Source of the DNA: Buxus sempervirens
Lineage: Eukaryota; Streptophyta; Magnoliopsida; Buxales; Buxaceae
NCBI GenBank assembly: GCA_947561395.2
Contig: OX387182.1
Location: 1,002,001-1,066,000, forward strand
Direction: 5' to 3'
DNA: 64,000 nucleotides
A program made the translations under genes and the position numbers. Shown here in pieces: positions 32,591 through 44,262 of this stretch; position 1 is the first letter of the stretch; the number at the start of each line of letters is the position of its first letter. Under the pieces are notes generated by a model that saw nothing but the letters and a program-made list of their open reading frames with translations, searched no databases and was not told the DNA's origin.

Positions 32591-33134
32591 GTTTTGACTT
32601 AAAATAAGTTTTCATAAATGACAAATGTGCTCTTATCATATAAAGGAGTTTTTAAAACAAGTTTTGAGTATATCTTTTAGAATTTATAAATATTACAAGG
32701 ATACCACCATACTTTTGCAAAACTCATTCTAAAAATCCACAGACAAGTATTGGGGTGATCTTTTTTTTTTCTTTCTCAAAACTCATTTGGTGAAAACTTA
32801 TTCCCCAAATGGAACCAAACGCCCATTTAATCCCTTATACTCATTCTATCCATATAACTCATTTCAAGCCTTGGAATGAGTTGGCAAAATGAATGCCAAA
32901 CGACACTTAATCTTTGGATAATATCTTTCAGAGTACCAAATATACAAATTTGACTTCTTGCATTCTAATCTTCTTTTCTTCTCATGAAAATAATATCCTT
33001 GAACTCAATGGGGTGAGACTTGAAACCTAGACCAAGGGACAAATGAGTAGTCTTTTCTCAAAACAAACAGGAGAAACAAAAAAAGAGAGCTTATTTCGTT
33101 TGGGTGTCCTATATGTGATTCTTGAGGTTACATC

Positions 33135-33771
33135 TAGAGGTGGCAATTGTGACCCGCCAACCTACCCGATATTAGATGGGTTTGGGTTGACTGTTTCAAC
33201 CCGTGGGTTGAGTTCAGGTCATGAATTCTCAACTTGATTATAAACAGGTTGGATTCAGGTTTGACCCCTCAACCCGAAATAACCCCATTACAACTCAATT
33301 ATTTTTTTTGGTAATATAAGTTTGGAACATTATGCTAACAATAGTTGTGGCTATTCAACCTCTCCTCTTTTAATATAAATAATGACAAAGGATAAAAGAG
33401 AAGAAAGATTTTCTACATATAAATATTTCAAATTTCTTAGCATCTACTAATATAAATTGAGGCATTGATGACAATTAAAGTCTTTTAAGGCTTTATTATT
33501 ATATTTTAGTTCTTTTCTTCTCGTTATTTTAGTTATATCTTAATGATTGTTGTGTTATTATGCTTGTCAAGTGTGTTTTGTTAGTAGAATGAATTCAAAA
33601 TTTTAATTTTTAGTAGTAATTTAAATTATTTAAACGGGTTGGCAGGTTAAAGCGGGTTGGGATATTTCAACCCATTTATTAAATGGGCAGGGTCGGGTTG
33701 CACCTTGGCTTGTTAAACCCCTACATAAACCCGATCCGAACCCACTCGAACCTGACCCATTGCCACCTCTA
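33135..33771. mobile_element. hAT-type MITE, unit 1 only
   Basis: 637 bp with ends TAGAGGTGGCAAT and ATTGCCACCTCTA, ACCCG/CGGGT-rich subterminal regions and an AT-rich centre. Unit 2 has the uninterrupted site (GAGGTTATATAGTCTATAAT near 46620). The flanking 8-mers GTTACATC and CTTATATA are diverged copies of GTTATATA as found in unit 2. No transposase. The ends match those of the gene-capturing hAT at 56556-57967. Confidence 0.85.
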
Positions 33772-34189
33772 CTTATATATCGTCAATAATAAGTTTCTGA
33801 CACCTTACAATAAAGATTCTTCTATAGTATTTTACAATAAGATACATGGGATCTTGGATCTCATAAATAAAAACATATTTTTATTATAAGGGAAATTTGC
33901 AGGGACACCCCCTGAGGTTTCTGACTATTACAGTCAGACCCCCTGAGGTTTGGAAGCGATCACTAACACCCCCTGACGTTCGCGCATTGCGCACATACAC
34001 CCCCTGCCGTCAATTTTGTGCTAACGGCGTCACTTGACTTCCATTAAACCCGGTTTTTATTGAACCGGGTCTAAACCTGGTTTTTATTTCATTCTTTCTC
34101 CTTCCCACGCCCTAAGCAAACCCCTGCTATCGCCCATTTCGTTTTTTTTCCTCCTCCTTCCTTCCAACGCCCCTTTCTGTCAGCAATAT

Positions 34190-34390
34190 CAAACCATGGC
34201 CGGCCACCTTTGGCTTCCCACATTGAACATAGCCTGCGATCACGGCGGTCCATGACCTCACGCTTCTCTGGGGCATTCGAGCAAACAAGTCACAGGCCTC
34301 GTCAATCTCTCCCGCCTTTATCAGTTGGGTGATCATTATATTCCACGTCACAACATCTCGTTGGCGCGTTATCCCGAACAATTGACGACA
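34190..34390 (-). pseudogene. Captured PPR gene fragment (downstream piece)
   Basis: On the minus strand: GITRQRDVVTWNIMITQLIK, then AGEIDEACDLFARMPQRSVR, then SWTAVIAGYVQCGKPK. This is two PPR motifs of a PLS-type pentatricopeptide protein, family of organelle RNA-processing factors. It lies just downstream of the stop of the chimeric frame and probably comes from the same source gene as the chimera's N-terminus. It is not in frame with the chimera. Confidence 0.75.
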
Positions 34391-34423
34391 GTGGCAGTGT
34401 TACTGTAGAGCTACAGCATCGAA

Positions 34424-35974
34424 TCAGTGATCACCAACCTGGTGCGATGTAATCGTTAAGCTGAACATTGATCGAATTTCAGTTGGAATTTGGCCAGAAA
34501 GTTGATTTCCTGATAAATTGAGAGTGCTTAGAATCTTCAGACTTGCAATCTCTTTTGGTATTTGTCCGTGAAGATTATTCCGACTGAAATCTACCAGAGT
34601 AAGAGACGAACAGCGAGAAATAGTTCTCGGAATGTCTCCGGTGATGTTGTTGGCGCTAATATTAATACTTGACAGGTTCTTCAAATCAAATATTTCCGGA
34701 GGAATTTCGCCGTAAAATTGATTCGACTCCAGAGACAGAGTCTGTAGACTAGCTAACCTTCCAATTGTTGCAGGGATTCTACCAGTAATCCTATTATTAG
34801 ACAGTCTCAGTAGTCCGAGATGATTCCCGGATATTTCCGCCGGAAGTTCGCCGGTGAGGTAGTTGTCGTTGAACTCGAGTATGGTTGCGGAAGGCAAGTT
34901 AAAAAGCCCTGGGGGAATTGTTCCATTAAGGAAATTCTTCGTTATACGTACCTTCGCCAACGATTTACACGCACCGAGTTCTTCCGGAATCGTTCCTATG
35001 AAATAGTTGTTCATCAAGATCAACGTCTCCAATCTTCCCCCGGAGCACGGATCAGGAGGTATTGTCCCAGTAAGATGATTAAAAGAGACATCAAGAATCT
35101 TTAGCCTACCGTTTCGGCCAAAATTATCCGGAAGTTCTAGCGTGAAGTTATTTTCCCACACTTGCAAGACCTCCAGATTCGGAAGAACGATAATGAACGC
35201 TGGGATGCTTCCGTGGAGATGGTTGCGAAACAGATGAAGTAGTTCCAGAGCCTTCAGGGCAGAGAAACTCTCCGGTATCTCGCCTGTTAGTTCATTATTC
35301 GAGAGATCAAGAGATTTCAGACCGCCTAGACCAGAGAGCTCCGTCGGTATCTGACCTGAGAGCCGGTTAAATTGCAGAAACAAGGTTTGTAGCATCTTTA
35401 AACCGCCTAAACTACCAGGTATCATGCCGGAGAGATTACAGTTTGCCGATGAGGCATACATGTGAACAAGTGTATTTTGCAAGAACAGATCTGATTGAAA
35501 CCCAAGTTTCTCAATTAACCCATGAATGATTCTACCCATCGAGAGATCCGATAAAATAGAACAAGCTTTGAGAACGAATGATAACGTGAAGGTATTGGGA
35601 AGGACATTATACTGACGCAACCGGTAAAAGAGATGAATGGCGTCAACCTGCGAATCTCCTTCGGCAAAGTCCCTCAGGCAAGAATTCCATGCAATAATCT
35701 CAGGCTTTTCGAGATGGTAAAAGATTTGTCGAGCATAATCGAAGCTTGGGGAAAAAGCGCAGACAAACCCAACACGAGAGGGAGGAAGAATCGAGAGCGA
35801 GTTGTTGGTTTTGATTATGTAAGAATGGATTTGTTTGAGCTCGAAAGGGGAGTTGAATTTGTACAACAAATCAGTGGCGAGCTTCTCCGTCCAGAGAGGA
35901 ACAGAGTTTCTGCTCTGGGTTTGGTTGGGTTTTGGCGATGGATAAAGGTGGAGGGAAGATAGGGAACAAATCAT
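34424..35974 (-). CDS. Chimeric PPR-LRR reading frame inside the Pack-MULE
   Basis: 516 aa, open from ATG to stop with no intron needed. Residues 1 to ~176 are the N-terminus of a PLS-type PPR protein ([66 protein letters not shown]). From ~179 to ~506 come about 13-14 plant LRRs closely matching the CLAVATA1 receptor-kinase ectodomain ([55 protein letters not shown]). About nine unrelated residues end it. No kinase, no transmembrane segment and no classical signal peptide are seen; the PPR part may carry an organelle-targeting N-terminus. The ~190 bp before the ATG could be the captured PPR promoter. Whether it is expressed is unknown; it may be a transduplicated pseudogene that happens to be open. 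Confidence 0.6.
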
Positions 35975-36522
35975 TTGTGAACGTTCTGTTGAATCTTCAG
36001 AAAAAAAAAATCGAATTTATAATGGTAACACAGAAAGAAGGACATCAGTTTGATCTTCGCCTAATCTGGTTTTTGACAAGAAGTTCTTTGCGCTATTGCT
36101 GACTGGCCATGGTTTGATATTGCATGTTTTTTCTAAAACTAGGTTTACGACCCCGGTTCAAACCACGGTTCAATAAAAACCGGGTTTAATGGAAGTCAAG
36201 TGACGCCGTTAGCACAAAATTGACGGCAGGGGGTGTATGTGCGCAATGCGCGAACGTCAGGGGGTGTTAGTGATCACTTCCAAACCTTAGGGGGTCTGAC
36301 TGTAATAGTCAGAAACCTCAGGGGGTGTCCCTGCAAATTTCCCTTATTATAAAGCCCGAACCTATGGATATATCAGATATAAGGTATCGTATGGGAATAT
36401 TGACGAAAAGGACTGTCAGGTCGTCTGTAAAATTCAAAATTTAAAATATGCCGCACAGACGAGGGGTATTATTGCAATTTGACTGGAACTCAAGTTCCTC
36501 TATGGTAAATACGTATAACTCC

Positions 36523-36529: not shown

Positions 36530-36612
36530 TGCCGTCCTTTTTTAAGTTGAGGGGAAGGCAATCTACGATTTGAAAGAAAAAGAAAAAGAAGAGAAAAACC
36601 AAATCCCCCGCC

Positions 36613-37193
36613 ATGGCGACAAGCTCTTCCTCCCCTTCCGCAGAACCTCCAAACAACCGTCCCTTCCCAAATCCGCCACCCAAAGATCTAAGACCTTTAA
36701 ACTCAATATCATCGCCACCCGCTGCCACCACCTCCGCCTCCGCTCCGCCCCCGCCGTAGCACCTCCTTCGACGTCTTCACCTCCAACTGTCCACCCAGCT
36801 CAGTCTCTCCCCCTTGGCGCGGGCAAAATCTCGAACCCTAATCCCCCTCAAATGCCCGGTGTCCACGACCCATCAGCCGTTCTTCCGCAGGGGTTTATTT
36901 ACCCTGTTGCCTCCTCTGGTCGGGGATTTGTTCCCAGAGGGTTTCGACCTCAATCCGCTGAACAATCGGTGACCGTTGCGAATCCGGCTGGGTTACATCC
37001 TCGATCCGTTCTGGCATTTCCGAACCAGGTTCGACCTTTTGGGTTCTATTATTCTGATCCCCAGGCCCAGACGGTTCACTCAATGAGGCCGCCGCCGCCG
37101 CCGAATATGCAACACATGCATCTTGGATCACGGCAGGTAAGCGGCACTGTCTCAGGCCAAATGGCGAGCATTCCTGTTGCCTCTCATCCAAAG
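36613..37193 (+). pseudogene. LIN37-like proline-rich gene, exon-1 fragment (unit 1)
   Basis: Only the first exon and ~1.2 kb of intron 1 are present, because the duplication breakpoint at 38400 cuts the intron. The N-terminus SSSPSAEPPNNRPFPNPPPK and the later QGFIYPVASSGRGF, TVANPAGLHPRSVLAFPNQV and IPVASHPK segments match unit 2. The first part (from ATG 36613) hits a TAG in the proline/alanine-coding GC tract near 36756, and the downstream part lies in another frame. That frame is open from an ATG at 36570. A good donor (AAG/GTTCG) remains at the exon end. See the unit 2 gene for the family. Confidence 0.75.
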
Positions 37194-38319
37194 GTTCGTT
37201 TATCTTTTTCCTTACATGTGTATTCATGTATATCTTCTTGATGTTATCTTGGATGATGGGGTAATCTTTATTTTTAATTTAGATGCTTTGATGTGTTTTT
37301 AATGTTTAGTTCCAGCGTCTGATTGCTGATATAATGTCTGCGTTACATTGACAAAACGTTGTAAAAAATTAAGATTCTTGCTTTGTGTTATAGTTATTAT
37401 AGTCATAGATCTCATTAAGCTGTGTGCCAAATGTATGATGGTGAAAGTAAAACATACCTTTTGTCTCCATGGAAGGTTAAAGAATTAGTACAATATGGTT
37501 TTAATCTCAGAATGTCTGGAGACATATGCGCTAGTTTATAATTTCACTTACCTGTCCGTCTGCAGTGAAATATGTTGATTGTAACAGAGAATTACGGTAG
37601 GTCAAGACCTCCTTTCTGGGTTCACCACACACCTCTACCCCTTCCCCACACCCCCACCCACTCACCACCGACACACACACACACACAATCCACCATGTGT
37701 GACAAAAAGCAGCTCTGAGTGACCATGAAATAACACAAATTGATGCTAAGTAATTCTTTTGGATTTCGTCATACACTCATCTCAAAATATAAGATTTGCA
37801 CATTTATTTTCAACTTGGTCTTGACTATTATATTTTTCTGCTTTCATGTTTTTCACTTGAATACCACAGTACAGTTGTTGCTTTTGGTCAAAATTAACAA
37901 AACACATCAAGATTTGAGAAACTAACTAAGTATTGTAGTTGTCAACTGAGCTGGCTGCTACTTATCGCCACTTGCATGACTTAATAATCATGACTGAGGA
38001 TTTAGCAGGTGATGATAATGAATGAAACTAGTGGTAACTCTATGCTCCTTCATTTGTGTAAGACTAGTGCATATGTAATGTTCATATGCTGTTACAAGAC
38101 CTAATTTAATCCATGTAATTACCGCTAAATATTTCTCCAAATTATTAATTATGCAGTGAATCAGTGTTGACCTTGCATATTTATGTCAAAGAATATGTTT
38201 CTTGGCAAGGGTCCCTAGATACCAATGCTTTTCAAAAAATGTTAGTCACCAGAACTTGAAGCAAGAGTTAGGGATATAAAATCACCGAATACCCTTAAAC
38301 TGAGAGCTCTTTGAGAGGA

Positions 38320-38403: not shown

Positions 38404-38454
38404 TCACGAAGTCACAATTCCAAAAAACTAGATAACCCAAGATTGCGTCTGGAG

Positions 38455-41400
38455 ATGAGTACATCAAGGACACTGAGGAAATTGCAGGTCGTTTCTCCGG
38501 TTCCTGCAGATATCGATATTGCCAACTCTGTTGAACCTTTTCACATCTCAGATATTGCAAATGAGCTCAATCTCAGCTCTCAACACTACGATATCTGTGG
38601 AAAGTACAAGGCAAAGGTTTATTACTGATCCCCAGTTCGTCTATTCTCCATTTGTCTCGTTATATTTGGCTTTAGTGGAAGTTTGAATGATTTGGGTATC
38701 AATTTCTATTAGGTTCTTTTATCTGTGATTGATGAGCTTGAAGGGTCAAGGGATGGATTCTATGTTGTGGTTGGAGGGATCACTCCCACCCCTCTTGGAG
38801 AAGGCAAGTCTACTACAACAGTTGGTCTCTGTCAAGCTCTTGGAGCTTTTCTTGATAAAAAGGTAGTCTTCACTCTTGTTTTCCATTTGTAAGTACTGAC
38901 TTGTATTCCTCTTCCCTCCTTTTTGGAATACACGTATAAAAGGACTATGTTTTCTTGTCCAAGGGAGATCTACGAGTACGCTCACTCAATGGTTTAATAG
39001 TTATCAGTCCAAAAGTGAGTTTCAGTTCCGAGCCAACGAGAATTCTCAATTAGAAGCGCAGACCAAAGCTTTGAAGAATTTTGAGAAGGCCACAGTTTGA
39101 GATATTTGTTTTTGCCAAAGACTGTTTGAATTGAGCAGTTTCCAGCCCATCTTCATCTTGAAAGCTTTAGATACATCTTGAAAAGTTCTAACGTAAAGAC
39201 CCCCTTCTGTTTTTGGAGAAGATATTTGTTTGTGTTTGGAAATCCTGGGTATTTTTTTGATATTTTGCTTCATGAGCCTTTAAGTGTAGTTTTAAATGAC
39301 AGGATAAGAAAATCCAGATCAAGCCCTTCTCATTTTTTTTCTTCTTCAATTCCCTGTATTTTAAGTGAAGTTTATGAGATTCAGGTTGGGCGCCAGATAG
39401 AAGAGATGACTCTGTAGAAATCTGGAAGTAATGACATAGAACATCAAGAACGGAGAAAAGGAAGTTGTGGCAGACAGTTTAAGGTTTTTCAGTTTCGTTA
39501 CTAATCTGATTATGGTTAATTTTAATTCTGACTGACATATGAGTTTGAGATAAATCAGTACTTCTGGAAACTCACTTAGATGATTAATTTTGTGTTCTTG
39601 TTTACTTACTCTGGGGAAGACAGGTTGTGCTCATAACTTGGAACTTGCATCCTCTGGGCACACTTGATTGTATGGAACTCTTGATGTTTTCTCGAAATGA
39701 TTTTGTGCCAAATATGAGTAATGGTGATTGTAAAAATATTTTATGTTTTTTTCCTTAATGATAAAGGTTTTTGCTACCCAATTATACTTGTCAGCACTAG
39801 AGATTTGTAACAGCTTGGAACAGAGCATGTCATTCAGCCTTTCTGGCTATTATATTATAATACTGACAGTTACATTTCAGTTTTATACCTAAAACATTTC
39901 CTGAGAGATAATAGACTTTGTGGTCTGCTCTACATGTGCCAAAGCTTGACAGTAGATGAACAGTAGTACAGGATAGTAATGGCAGAAATAATACTAGTTC
40001 ATGTGAATGTGGTGGAAAAATTATTTGGAATCACATTCTGTTCCAATAAATATGAAGGTCTTATAAATCATATTGCCTGCATTATTCTTTTGCTTTCTCT
40101 GAATTTCAGTGAGTACAGACGTTCATTTAATTCTTCATTAGATGATAAATGGGTAGTTTTGCTAGAAGAAGTTGATTTCTGCTAATCTTGACCTTTGAAA
40201 ATTTGATGCTGCACTGCTAGTTGACTAGGAAAACGTAGTTGAAACCTTGTTATTTGCAGCTACTTGCTATTGTGTGATGTAAGCTCAATGCCCACGTTAA
40301 AAATATTGTATCCCTCATCTGAGTTTGCCTGGGAAGGTTTTGGCACTATTAATTTTTCTCTTCTTTGAATTTGGAATTAATGTCTAATAATGTAGGAAAT
40401 TGACGTGGTATAAAATTGAAGATAACTGAATATAATGGTGAATCATGTTGCTCTTCAAAAATTTAGTGCTATTATTTGCTGCTACTGCTGTAGTGAGATG
40501 TAAGCTTAGTGCTCAGGTTATGAAACTCGTCTCACCTCGAATGAGTTTGCCTAGGAGGGCTTTGGTCCTATTATTTTTCCCTTCTTAATGTTCAGAACTA
40601 ATTCTTAGCAATCAAGGAAATTCACGTGGTTTTAAAATTGAAAATGAACAAAAATCATGGCTAATCCTGTTGCTCTCTCATATTGAGATTCATGATGGTT
40701 TCATATGTTTCTTAAGCCCCTTGCCTTGTAATGTTCTATCAGCACCTAATAGGAGAATAGCACGAATACCTTCAACATTGCTGGCTTACTCATCCAGAAG
40801 ATTTACAGATCACCTGGTAGCCCTACTTATAGTTAAAACAAATTGCAAAAATTCCATGAGCCCACTATTCTAACTGCAAATAGAATGAACCTCCAGCCCT
40901 ATAGAAAAACTGTTGAAAAAAAAATATATGGAAGGAAAAAGAAAACAAAGAGAAGCTTCAGCACTTTAACAAAGTCTTGTTTTCGTATTCAATAATTTAT
41001 CTCCTGTAGAATTACTTAATTGGACATTTTTCCAATTATATGCTGGTTGTGGGGGAAATATTGTGCAGAGAGGCTGCTCCATGGCTTTTTTGCAAATGGA
41101 ACTAGAATCTTTTCTTGTTCCTTCTTGAAATGTTGCCCACTGTGTTTTTTCTTTGTCAAAGATTGAATTCACTTTTGAAATGAGACCTCTTAGTACATTG
41201 TTCTATTTTATTTTTGGAAACTTTAACATTTGACATTTCCCTTTTCTTTCCTAATCAATAATAGCAATTCATTTAATGAAACGTCAACGATAAGTAGAAA
41301 TAACTTAAATGCAACTTTGTCCCAAACCCAAGGGACACACTTGCTGTATTGCATTGGGCAATAGGTGTCATCTTTCCCTGGTTGAAGGAAGAATGCTTTT

Positions 41401-44262
41401 AGATTACAACTAATCCTTTCACCATTGGATAACCTTACATTCTTTGCATCGAAGTGAAACTGATTTACGATAGTTTCTTAGATTTGGTTTGACATGTTGC
41501 AGCCACCATTTATTTTGTATCCACTTGTGCTAGGTTGTCACCTGCCTCCGTCAACCATCTCAAGGACCAACCTTTGGAATCAAAGGGGGTGCAGCAGGTG
41601 GTGGTTACAGTCAAGTCATTCCAATGGATGAGTTCAATTTGCATCTTACAGGAGATATCCATGCTATCACTGCTGCTAATAACCTCCTAGCCGCTGCTAT
41701 TGATGCGCGAATATTCCATGAGGCAACACAGTCGGATAAGGCTCTGTTGAACAGGTTATGCCCTCCTATCAAAGAGGGCAAGCGGAGCTTTGCTAACATC
41801 ATGTTTAGGCGACTCAACAAGCTTGACATCTCCAAGACCAATCCTGATGAGCTTACTCTGAAAGAAATCAAGAAATTTGTTAGGCTTGACATAGACCCAG
41901 ATTCTATCACCTGGAGAAGGGTTATGGATCTCAATGACCGCTTCCTGAGGAAGATTACTGTTGGCCAGGGTCCCGAAGAAAAAGGGATGCTGAGAGAAAC
42001 GGGTTTTGACATATCAGTTGCCAGTGAGATCATGGCAGTGTTGGCGCTCACGACTTCTCTGACTGATATGAGAGAGAGGCTCGGAAAAATGGTGATAGGA
42101 AACAGCAAGGCTGGTGACCCAATTACAGCTGATGATCTTGGTGTTGGTGGTGCCTTGACTGTGCTAATGAAGGATGCCATCAACCCTACACTTATGCAGA
42201 CTCTTGAGGGAACCCCTGTTCTTGTTCATGCTGGGCCATTTGCTAATATTGCTCATGGGAATTCTTCCATTGTTGCTGATAAGATTGCCCTGAAGCTGGT
42301 GGGACCAGGAGGATTTGTGGTCACTGAAGCAGGTTTTGGTGCTGATATTGGTACTGAGAAGTTCATGAATATAAAATGCCGATACAGTCAATTAACTCCT
42401 CAGTGTGCTGTACTTGTGGCAACAATAAGGGCCCTGAAAATGCACGGTGGGGGGCCGGAGGTGATTGCTGGTAAGCCTCTTGACCATGCTTACTTGACTG
42501 AGAATGTGGCTTTAGTGGAAGCTGGCTGTGTCAATCTGGCTAGGCATATAACCAACACAAAAGCATATGGGGTGAATGTTGTGGTTGCTGTGAACATGTT
42601 CTCAACTGACTCTGAGGCAGAGCTAAATGCAGTGAGGAATGCAGCATTGTCTGCTGGTGCATTTGATGCCGTTATCTGTTCTCATCATGCACATGGTGGA
42701 AGGGGAGCGGTTAGTATCAACTTCCATTTTAAAATTTTGGCATTATTTATCTATCATTTTTCTGGTGGACATTATTCCCTCCCATATACAAAAGCACATA
42801 GACAGGTTGGGAAAAAGACGAGAATTTAGGAGAGCAATTGCAATACCCTGTACCCTGTAGTGCCAAACATTTACTTGCATTGAAGTTATTTTTCCTAGAG
42901 AACAAATTATAAGTGGGTTGTTAAGATTAAAACCAAGACAGTCCTATAAGTGGGTTGTTAAGATTAAAACCAAGACAGTCCGAGACAGATGCTTGTCAAA
43001 TCTATACATGCTACCTAAGTAGGAAAAGATCATTCTGTTGGCAGAATCTGATCTTGTTTCCATGTGAAGCTTGAGTTTCTGCCAAATGGAGGTGAACTTG
43101 CAGTTCCTTATTATTGATAAGATGGATAAATCTCTAATAGGTCCACACAGCCAACCCTATATCCACGTAAGCCCCTGCTCCAAGTGGGTAGGGGTTCAAT
43201 AGAGAATACATGCACCAGATTGGTGTAATAGAATCAGATGCTAAGAATATAAACTACGAGAACAGGTTTATATTGTGTTCACCTTGCTAGCCTAACTGGT
43301 CCCCCACAATTACTACCACAATGAAGAAAATTTTCCAACATTCATGTTTAACAATGTTCTGCATAGGTTTAGACTCTGGAGTTCTTTTGCCTTGTTTAGC
43401 TACCAAAAGCATCATAGGTTATAGAACATTCTCATTGAATGGATCTCAGTGTTTGTTTTCAATTGAGAGTTATGGAAAGTTTGTTAATTCAATGTCCATG
43501 CTTTTCATGGAATCCAAAAGGCAAGGCTTACTACTTGTAATACTATACAAGCACTCGCTTATCATATGCTTTGTCTAAATCAATAAAAACCATATGCATT
43601 CACCTGAGAAGTCAGACGAAGATGGTGAATGATGTTGAAGAGTGCAATAGAATGAATCTTTACCTGCAGCTTAGGTTTGACATATTTTTAAAGGCCCTGG
43701 TTAGCTTAACTTTTTTGGCTAACTGTACAAAGTAACCCAACTCTTCAGGTTGACCTTGGTATTGCAGTTCAAAGAGCATGTGAGAACGTGACACAGCCAT
43801 TGAAATTTTTGTATCCACTAGAATTCAGCATCAAAGAGAAAATAGAGGCAATTGCAAGATCATATGGTGCGAGTGGTGTTGAATACTCAGAGCAGGTAAT
43901 GTTTTCCACTGCTTTGACAATTCGTTCTCCTTTATGTTATTGGTCATATGCTATCATGTTCAATGGTTTCCCATTTCGGCATGTAGGCTGAAAAACAGAT
44001 TGAGATGTATACCAGGCAAGGATTTTCTAATCTGCCAATCTGCATGGCAAAAACTCAGTATTCATTCTCACACATCCCCTCAGTGAAAGGAGCCCCAGTT
44101 GGATTCATCTTACCAATCAGGGATGTTAGGGCCTGCATCGGAGCTGGATTCATTTATCCGTTAGTTGGGACGATGGGTACAATGCCTGGGCTTCCAACAA
44201 GGCCTTGTTTCTTCGACATTGACGTTGACACTGCGACCGGAAAAGTTCTTGGTCTTTCTTAG
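38455..44262 (+). CDS. THFS: 10-Formyltetrahydrofolate synthetase, copy 2 (native promoter lost)
   Basis: Same reaction as copy 1. Exons 38455-38616, 38713-38862, 41534-42709, 43749-43895 and 43987-44262 have the same lengths and phase, so 636 aa with P-loop GEGKST and all family motifs intact. I count about 17 amino-acid differences from copy 1. At most positions where the family residue is known to me, copy 2 carries the departure (DLYGKYK to DICGKYK, LTPKE to LTLKE, PSEKG to PSVKG, RASIGA to RACIGA, GTMSTM to GTMGTM). In exon 5 I count 7 nucleotide differences in 276, of which 4 change the protein. Only 51 bp of native 5' DNA were copied; upstream is now LIN37-like intron sequence. The gene may be weakly expressed, driven by a new promoter, or on the way to decay. 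Confidence 0.93.
38996..39232 (-). mobile_element. LINE (L1-type) fragment in synthetase intron 2, unit 2 only
   Basis: On the minus strand: [20 protein letters not shown] and [13 protein letters not shown], the plant L1 segment just after the reverse transcriptase. Unit 1 lacks it, with five different bases at the site. It could be an insertion in unit 2 or a loss in unit 1. Confidence 0.7.
40190..40680 (+). repeat. Old ~223-bp tandem repeat in synthetase intron 2
   Basis: Two diverged copies: TTATTTGCAGCTACTTGCTA near 40249 and TTATTTGCTGCTACTGCTGT near 40472, ending with TTGCTCTTCA and TTGCTCTCTC respectively. Unit 1 joins GAGTTTGC of the first copy directly to the CTCTCTC end of the second, so unit 1 lost ~340 bp (the equivalent of 40327-40668) after the duplication. 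Confidence 0.75.
42857..43545 (+). repeat. Unclassified interspersed repeat, copy 3 (synthetase intron 4, unit 2)
   Basis: Counterpart of 29685-30325. It contains an extra ~39-bp tandem duplication (TATAAGTGGGTTGTTAAGAT occurs at 42909 and again at 42948) absent from unit 1. Confidence 0.75.

Follow-up and report, generated by a model that had tools for sequence, protein, structure and literature searches.

A Pack-MULE of Buxus sempervirens that probably acquired fragments of two unrelated genes in successive captures

Structure of the element

The window, a stretch of 64,000 nucleotides from the genome of Buxus sempervirens, harbors at 33890-36343 an element of 2454 bp delimited by a pair of 178-bp TIRs that differ at 2 positions. 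It is bracketed by a 9-bp target site duplication (TSD), TTATTATAA, whose two copies match at 9/9 positions, and the near-identical ends and perfect duplication described in the original prediction are thereby upheld. Nearly all of the sequence between the ends is explained by subterminal sequence of the transposon family and by fragments of two donor genes, one on C8 and the other on C12 of the same genome. The features, from left to right, are as follows, with the open reading frame (ORF) given last:

33881-33889, no strand: target site duplication, left copy (TTATTATAA)
33890-34067, plus strand: left TIR, 178 bp
34068-34181, plus strand: left subterminal MULE sequence, common to other family members (family matches reach query base 292)
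34183-34201, minus strand: 19-nt inverted copy of the 5' flank of the PPR donor, pairing exactly with 36105-36123, at the apparent inner border of the first capture
34203-34384, minus strand: second PPR-DYW piece, 99% identical to the C8 donor
34385-34387, no strand: joint without clear template, 3 nt (ACG)
34388-34452, minus strand: shorter CLV1 piece, 65/65 identical to C12, with the apparent last part of exon 1 (34439-34452) and first part of the intron (34388-34438), CAG/GT
34453-35447, minus strand: CLV1 LRR piece, 990/995 identical to C12
35448-35450, no strand: joint without clear template, 3 nt (GAT)
35451-36140, minus strand: first PPR-DYW piece (5' flank, start codon, codons 1-174), 98% identical to C8
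36135-36165, minus strand: right subterminal MULE sequence, of which 36135-36140 is covered by both the MULE-family and the PPR donor matches
36166-36343, minus strand: right TIR, 178 bp
36344-36352, no strand: target site duplication, right copy (TTATTATAA)
35974-34424, minus strand: chimeric ORF of 516 codons with an ATG start (PPR codons 1-174, LRRs and a short out-of-frame tail from CLV1 exon 1 and intron)

A search of the same genome with the element recovered at least 91 matches, most of them to the TIR ends of other elements (74-94% identity), a count that is a lower bound in that it derives from the best 40 of 281 candidates scored. We sampled the family as 18 stretches representing 14 other places (6 long and 8 short), and scanned 2 of the long and 3 of the short members for Pfam domains in their open frames. 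Two long members with the same ends encode transposase domains, in each case in separate frames: L049 has DBD_Tnp_Mut (PF03108) and SWIM (PF04434), with MULE (PF10551) falling below the Pfam cut-off, and L054 has DBD_Tnp_Mut (PF03108) and MULE (PF10551), which marks this TIR family as MuDR-type. The element itself lacks a transposase of its own, the frames scanned in it (516 and 69 aa) matching LRR and PPR families only. That it has transposed is evident from related copies with differing flanks on C1 (the window) and C3. With its long TIRs, 9-bp TSD, MuDR-type ends and captured host fragments whose parents lie elsewhere, the stretch is, to judge from its sequence, a non-autonomous MuDR-type Pack-MULE with two parent genes, an element of a known kind. 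Its TIR contains the motif ACCCCCTGA-GTT at a spacing of ~30 bp (window 33897-33981), with 3 copies found computationally and a fourth by eye near 34009; these are possibly transposase-binding repeats.

Other short members of the family have the same ends as this element and other internal sequences. One of them, L061 (C15:36126193-36127775), carries a WRKY fragment (PF03106), and is hence another Pack-MULE; it is 92.6% alike to L062 (C8:19308848-19310417) over ~1.6 kb, ends included. Similarly, L059 (C6:46488430-46490102), with an RVT_3 (reverse-transcriptase-like) fragment in Pfam, and L060 (C8:32695516-32697191) are 97.2% alike over ~1.7 kb. The frames of L063 matched no Pfam family.

In the immediate neighborhood, window 33134-33772, just to the left of the Pack-MULE, is a separate element-like stretch, whose ends, delineated by eye, are TAGAGGTGGCAA...TTGCCACCTCTA, and which we take to be akin to hAT-type non-autonomous elements. 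On the right, ~200 bp from the element, lies a 231-codon open frame (36546-37241), head-to-head with the chimeric ORF and with no Pfam match at E<=0.01; the element may have inserted in the promoter of this frame. Further along, open frames on the plus strand (38453-44262) resemble exons of one gene, presumably a formate-tetrahydrofolate ligase.

The parent genes and the captured pieces

The donor on C8 is a PPR-DYW gene of 632 aa with PPR, E, E+ and DYW domains in Pfam, whose nearest other full-length gene is 46% identical among the best 70 of 1209 candidates scored. The donor on C12 has an 881-codon open frame, with its first ATG at codon 12, that spans the LRRNT, the LRRs and most of the kinase, the remainder of which lies in a second frame of 130 codons; the gene nearest to this donor is 56% identical among the best 52 of 2845 candidates scored. 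We name it CLAVATA1 (CLV1)-type on its architecture and its likeness to the known CLAVATA1 sequence, an assumption made from these rather than from a tree. The matches to the two donors, at 98-99% identity over 182, 690 and 995 bp, exclude chance likeness. Thus, the intact PPR and CLAVATA1-like donors that the original prediction proposed to seek elsewhere in the genome both exist there, and its reading of the locus as a Pack-MULE that combines two unrelated host genes within a single frame is confirmed.

From the PPR gene, the element keeps the start codon and 166 bp of 5' flank, and the 19-nt foldback copy of that flank lengthens its inverted-repeat structure. A further PPR piece beyond the LRR had also been predicted, and it is indeed present at 34203-34384; in C8 only 25 bp separate the stretches corresponding to the two PPR pieces. 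In their place the window has 1066 bp, made up of 3 nt, 65 bp of CLV1, 995 bp of CLV1 LRR and another 3 nt. The two CLV1 pieces have the same order and orientation as in C12, with the ~850 bp that lie between them in C12 absent. The outer joints fall at 35447-35451 for PPR/LRR, which had been placed at about 35440, and at 34384-34388 for LRR/PPR; the latter, together with the internal CLV1/CLV1 joint at 34452/34453, resolves the junction originally put at about 34390-34450. This internal joint is blunt and shows no exact microhomology, with 3 shared nucleotides if 1 mismatch is allowed.

The shorter CLV1 piece appears to hold the start of an intron, the exon/intron boundary in C12 being inferred from conserved kinase codons and the frame of exon 2, and this points to DNA rather than mRNA as the template; we accordingly rejected a retro-derived filler. 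An LRR segment carried in by a transposon of its own was likewise rejected, as neither a target duplication nor a TIR was found at the joints that form the edges of the filler.

A sister element and the order of captures

An element at C3:53273688-53275056 has the same ends and the same PPR/MULE breakpoints as that in the window, and contains the PPR fragment, in a 292-codon frame, but no LRR. Its flanks are runs of T on both sides, which makes its 9-bp duplication consistent with transposition and less telling than that in the window. Identical stretches of 25 bp link the two PPR pieces in C3 and in C8. We aligned the PPR part of the window, C3 and C8 over 873 columns, including gaps and two sites (34206 and 36140) that lie at capture joints. 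Relative to C8, 9 substitutions and 1 indel are common to the window and C3, 3 substitutions are private to the window, and 5 substitutions and 1 indel are private to C3. The order that emerges from comparing the two elements and both donors is capture of the PPR fragment, copying of the element and only then insertion of the LRR into the captured PPR fragment, in agreement with the nesting that the original prediction had proposed. The window-private change in the PPR part (3/~872 sites) is similar to the window-branch change in the LRR (2 to 4/995), so that the capture of the LRR is compatible with the time of the C1-C3 split, the numbers being small. A coarse comparison of the short members L056-L063, using matches of at least 330 bp, brought out no second pair with and without a filler.

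Other histories of the locus can be weighed against this order. Were the chimera to have arisen in a single capture, or with the LRR present first and later deleted from C3, the close relationship of the C1 and C3 elements, in a setting with no dated outgroup copy, would be accommodated. However, C3 and C8 are identical over the 25 bp missing from the window, and a plain deletion from a window-like element could not restore these; single-step capture was rejected on account of this segment common to C3 and C8. An LRR-first order would call for something like an ectopic conversion tract from C8, falling between the element-specific sites 34206 and 35527, which could bring back the 25 bp, and we regard this whole class of histories as very improbable. 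The complete identity of the shorter CLV1 piece to C12 (65/65) is what might be expected if reads of a PPR Pack-MULE had been wrongly joined to CLV1 reads in the assembly. Yet, the LRR piece differs from C12 at 5/995 sites, which argues against a chimera built from donor reads; at each outer joint there are 3 nt that match neither parent, and the filler is bracketed by intact TIRs and a TSD, such that an assembly artefact is exceedingly improbable. We also sought an ordinary PPR-LRR gene outside any MULE, and saw none among the best 40 of 281, 52 of 2845 and 70 of 1209 candidates scored, the last of these sets lacking even the PPR part of the window itself, so that this absence is not an absolute one. 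We rejected an ordinary fusion gene on the ground that no second PPR-LRR locus appeared among these best candidates.

The chimeric open reading frame

As had been predicted, the frame starts with the N-terminus of the PPR gene: its first 174 codons reproduce the beginning of the C8 protein save for D127N and V150I. In Pfam, the 516-aa product matches LRR families, with no PPR family at E<=0.001, and the 69-aa frame beyond it has a PPR match. We nevertheless label the N-terminus as PPR because of the C8 donor and because residues 79-176 match designed PPR proteins with solved structures. The LRR part matches solved structures of plant LRR receptor ectodomains, and a simple pattern recovers 13 complete LRR cores and 1 partial core ahead of them, which bears out the earlier count of 13-14 repeats. 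The product is without an N-terminal LRR cap and without a kinase, as against the LRRNT_2 and Pkinase domains of the C12 donor. Having LRR families only, it does not have the architecture of a CLAVATA1-type receptor kinase; nor, with 174/632 donor residues and no match to E, E+ or DYW, does it have that of a PPR-DYW editing factor. Five alternative placements of the LRR (2 frame shifts and 3 inverted) all end the frame at 179-197 codons, which makes the long frame a one-in-six outcome, or one-in-three once the orientation is given.

Between the LRR piece and C12, all 5 of the differences (5/995 sites) are nonsynonymous, namely (donor/window) A/T498, L/P309, K/N288, L/R287 and D/V263. The 5 differences between the PPR part of the ORF and C8 comprise 2 nonsynonymous and 3 synonymous changes. 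Four CLV1 paralogues of the same genome help in polarizing the former set. Position 263 is D or E in 4/4 of them, with V in the window, and position 309 is L in 4/4, with P in the window, such that D263V and L309P are best placed on the window branch. By comparison, N288 is kept in 4/4 paralogues and the C12 donor has K; here the window seems to have kept the ancestral residue and C12 to have changed, which implies that the template of the capture was not exactly the present-day C12 sequence. T498 is found in 1/4 paralogues, and R287 in 0/4 (Q or S at this position, with L in the donor), so that these two changes may lie on either branch.

We simulated neutral change starting from the ORF of the window (20,000 runs, kappa 4, no indels). 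The probability of 5/5 nonsynonymous changes in the LRR was 0.17, and that of 2/5 or fewer in the PPR part 0.14; the PPR half alone thus leans towards synonymous change, on n=5 changes. After 10 changes the frame was still open in 75% of the runs, meaning that an open frame needs no selection. The substitutions in the fused frame show no departure from neutrality, in a test that has almost no power with 10 substitutions, which are too few for dN/dS proper.

Against this background, the readings of what the element does can be set side by side. In its strongest form, the fused ORF would be a functional new gene: translated, with the PPR N-terminus directing the LRR array to an organelle, and retained by selection. 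The single intact 516-codon frame, which comes with the start codon of the PPR gene and 166 bp of its 5' flank, speaks for this, as does its head-to-head placement with an open frame starting ~200 bp past the element, presumably a host gene. However, openness in 75% of neutral runs is what youth alone predicts. Moreover, each of the 5 LRR differences alters the protein, and at least 2 of them, placed on the window branch, strike conserved positions; the LRR segment comes from within an extracellular receptor and has neither cap nor kinase, and only one PPR-LRR copy was seen in the genome among the best 40 of 281 candidates. We therefore hold a selected new gene to be highly improbable. The more specific picture, in which the imported product would reuse in an organelle the LRR surface of an extracellular peptide receptor as part of a PPR-headed LRR protein, seems to us just as far-fetched. 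The claim of a new protein architecture, in the functional sense, is accordingly the part of the original prediction that found no support, given a young frame, openness expected without selection, no sign of constraint and an internal receptor slice.

A regulatory role, in which transcripts of the element give rise to small RNAs acting on the CLV1-type gene, the PPR-DYW gene or both, gains some plausibility from the 98-99% identity to two genes whose nearest listed relatives are only 56% and 46% identical, and from the mention of small-RNA roles of Pack-MULEs in the available text of PMC8277862; even so, we consider it rather unlikely. The captured fragment may be transcribed or feed small RNAs. 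Most likely, the element is a young, neutrally drifting captured fragment without a protein role.

Discussion

Taken together, we consider it very probable that this is a Pack-MULE built stepwise by PPR capture, copying and an LRR gain through break repair, with most likely no present role as a protein. In the initial step, as shown by the shared breakpoints, a fragment of the C8 PPR-DYW gene was captured between the TIRs, leaving the 19-nt foldback. This PPR Pack-MULE was then copied, as its presence at two sites shows, such that one copy persists without the LRR on C3 and the other with it on C1. In the latter, the captured PPR piece probably suffered an internal break that was repaired with the loss of 25 bp, the outcome being seen and the pathway conjectural, using as filler two stretches of the C12 CLV1-type gene copied in order and in one orientation, with ~850 bp skipped. 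The LRR fell into the PPR frame by chance. The scars (3 nt at either outer joint, and no duplication of the target) resemble those of gap repair by template switching from genomic DNA, and we infer such a pathway for the second capture.

Rice Pack-MULEs and MULE-derived chimeric genes were reportedly described by Jiang and colleagues in 2004. The element studied here resembles these rice elements in being non-autonomous, in its long TIRs and TSD, and in placing unlinked gene fragments in a new frame. Unlike them, it has both a sister free of the second capture and both parents, which make the order of events and the scar readable. Rice Pack-MULEs are cited in the available parts of PMC13317346 and PMC9168764, and frames with two parents make up ~5-10% of MULE-derived putative genes according to the accessible text of PMC4858842. 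Among the matches listed in the literature searched, we saw neither a PPR and CLV1 pair nor a PPR-LRR Pack-MULE and, judging by titles and the beginnings of abstracts, no two-step capture in a plant MULE resolved to the base.

The closest mechanistic parallel comes from animals. Animal Pack-TIRs are attributed to gap filling or FoSTeST, gap filling by template switching being the published model for the single-copy ones; 67.6% of animal Pack-TIRs show some microhomology, and whether the two routes extend to plant Pack-MULEs is left open in the available text of that paper (PMC8277862). The likeness lies in a TIR element that took its filler from a different locus, presumably by template switching. 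In contrast to the animal cases, the host here is a plant MULE, the filler entered an already captured fragment, and the joints have 3-nt inserts or are blunt rather than showing microhomology. The hybrid-element mechanism of Arabidopsis Pack-CACTA elements, which takes up the DNA between neighboring elements (PMC13317346, section 7), is comparable as a route of host DNA uptake by TIR elements. However, the LRR here has PPR sequence on both sides and its source is on another chromosome; a route that needs neighboring elements leaves the second capture unexplained. The accessible sections of PMC13317346 also allow that a further mechanism for capture of unlinked sequence by DNA elements may be undiscovered. 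According to the available text of PMC3310237, acquired sequence may become part of extended TIRs. As for the foldback, the available text of PMC11724301 has short templated inverted duplications arising via foldback at yeast breaks.

How DNA elements take up unlinked gene fragments is still treated as an open question in the available parts of PMC13317346 (section 7) and, for plants, of PMC8277862. In this regard, the present locus offers the state before (C3), the templates (C8 and C12) and the state after (the window), with few later mutations, which allows the second capture to be followed at single-base resolution. A capture that is internal rather than at the TIRs, from apparently unspliced DNA, with two jumps within a single donor gene and no duplication, favors repair of an internal break over end-based models for this second capture. 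As a protein, the fused frame is probably unimportant; its value lies in a clear before-and-after record, which shows that captures in series can give rise to a Pack-MULE with two parents.
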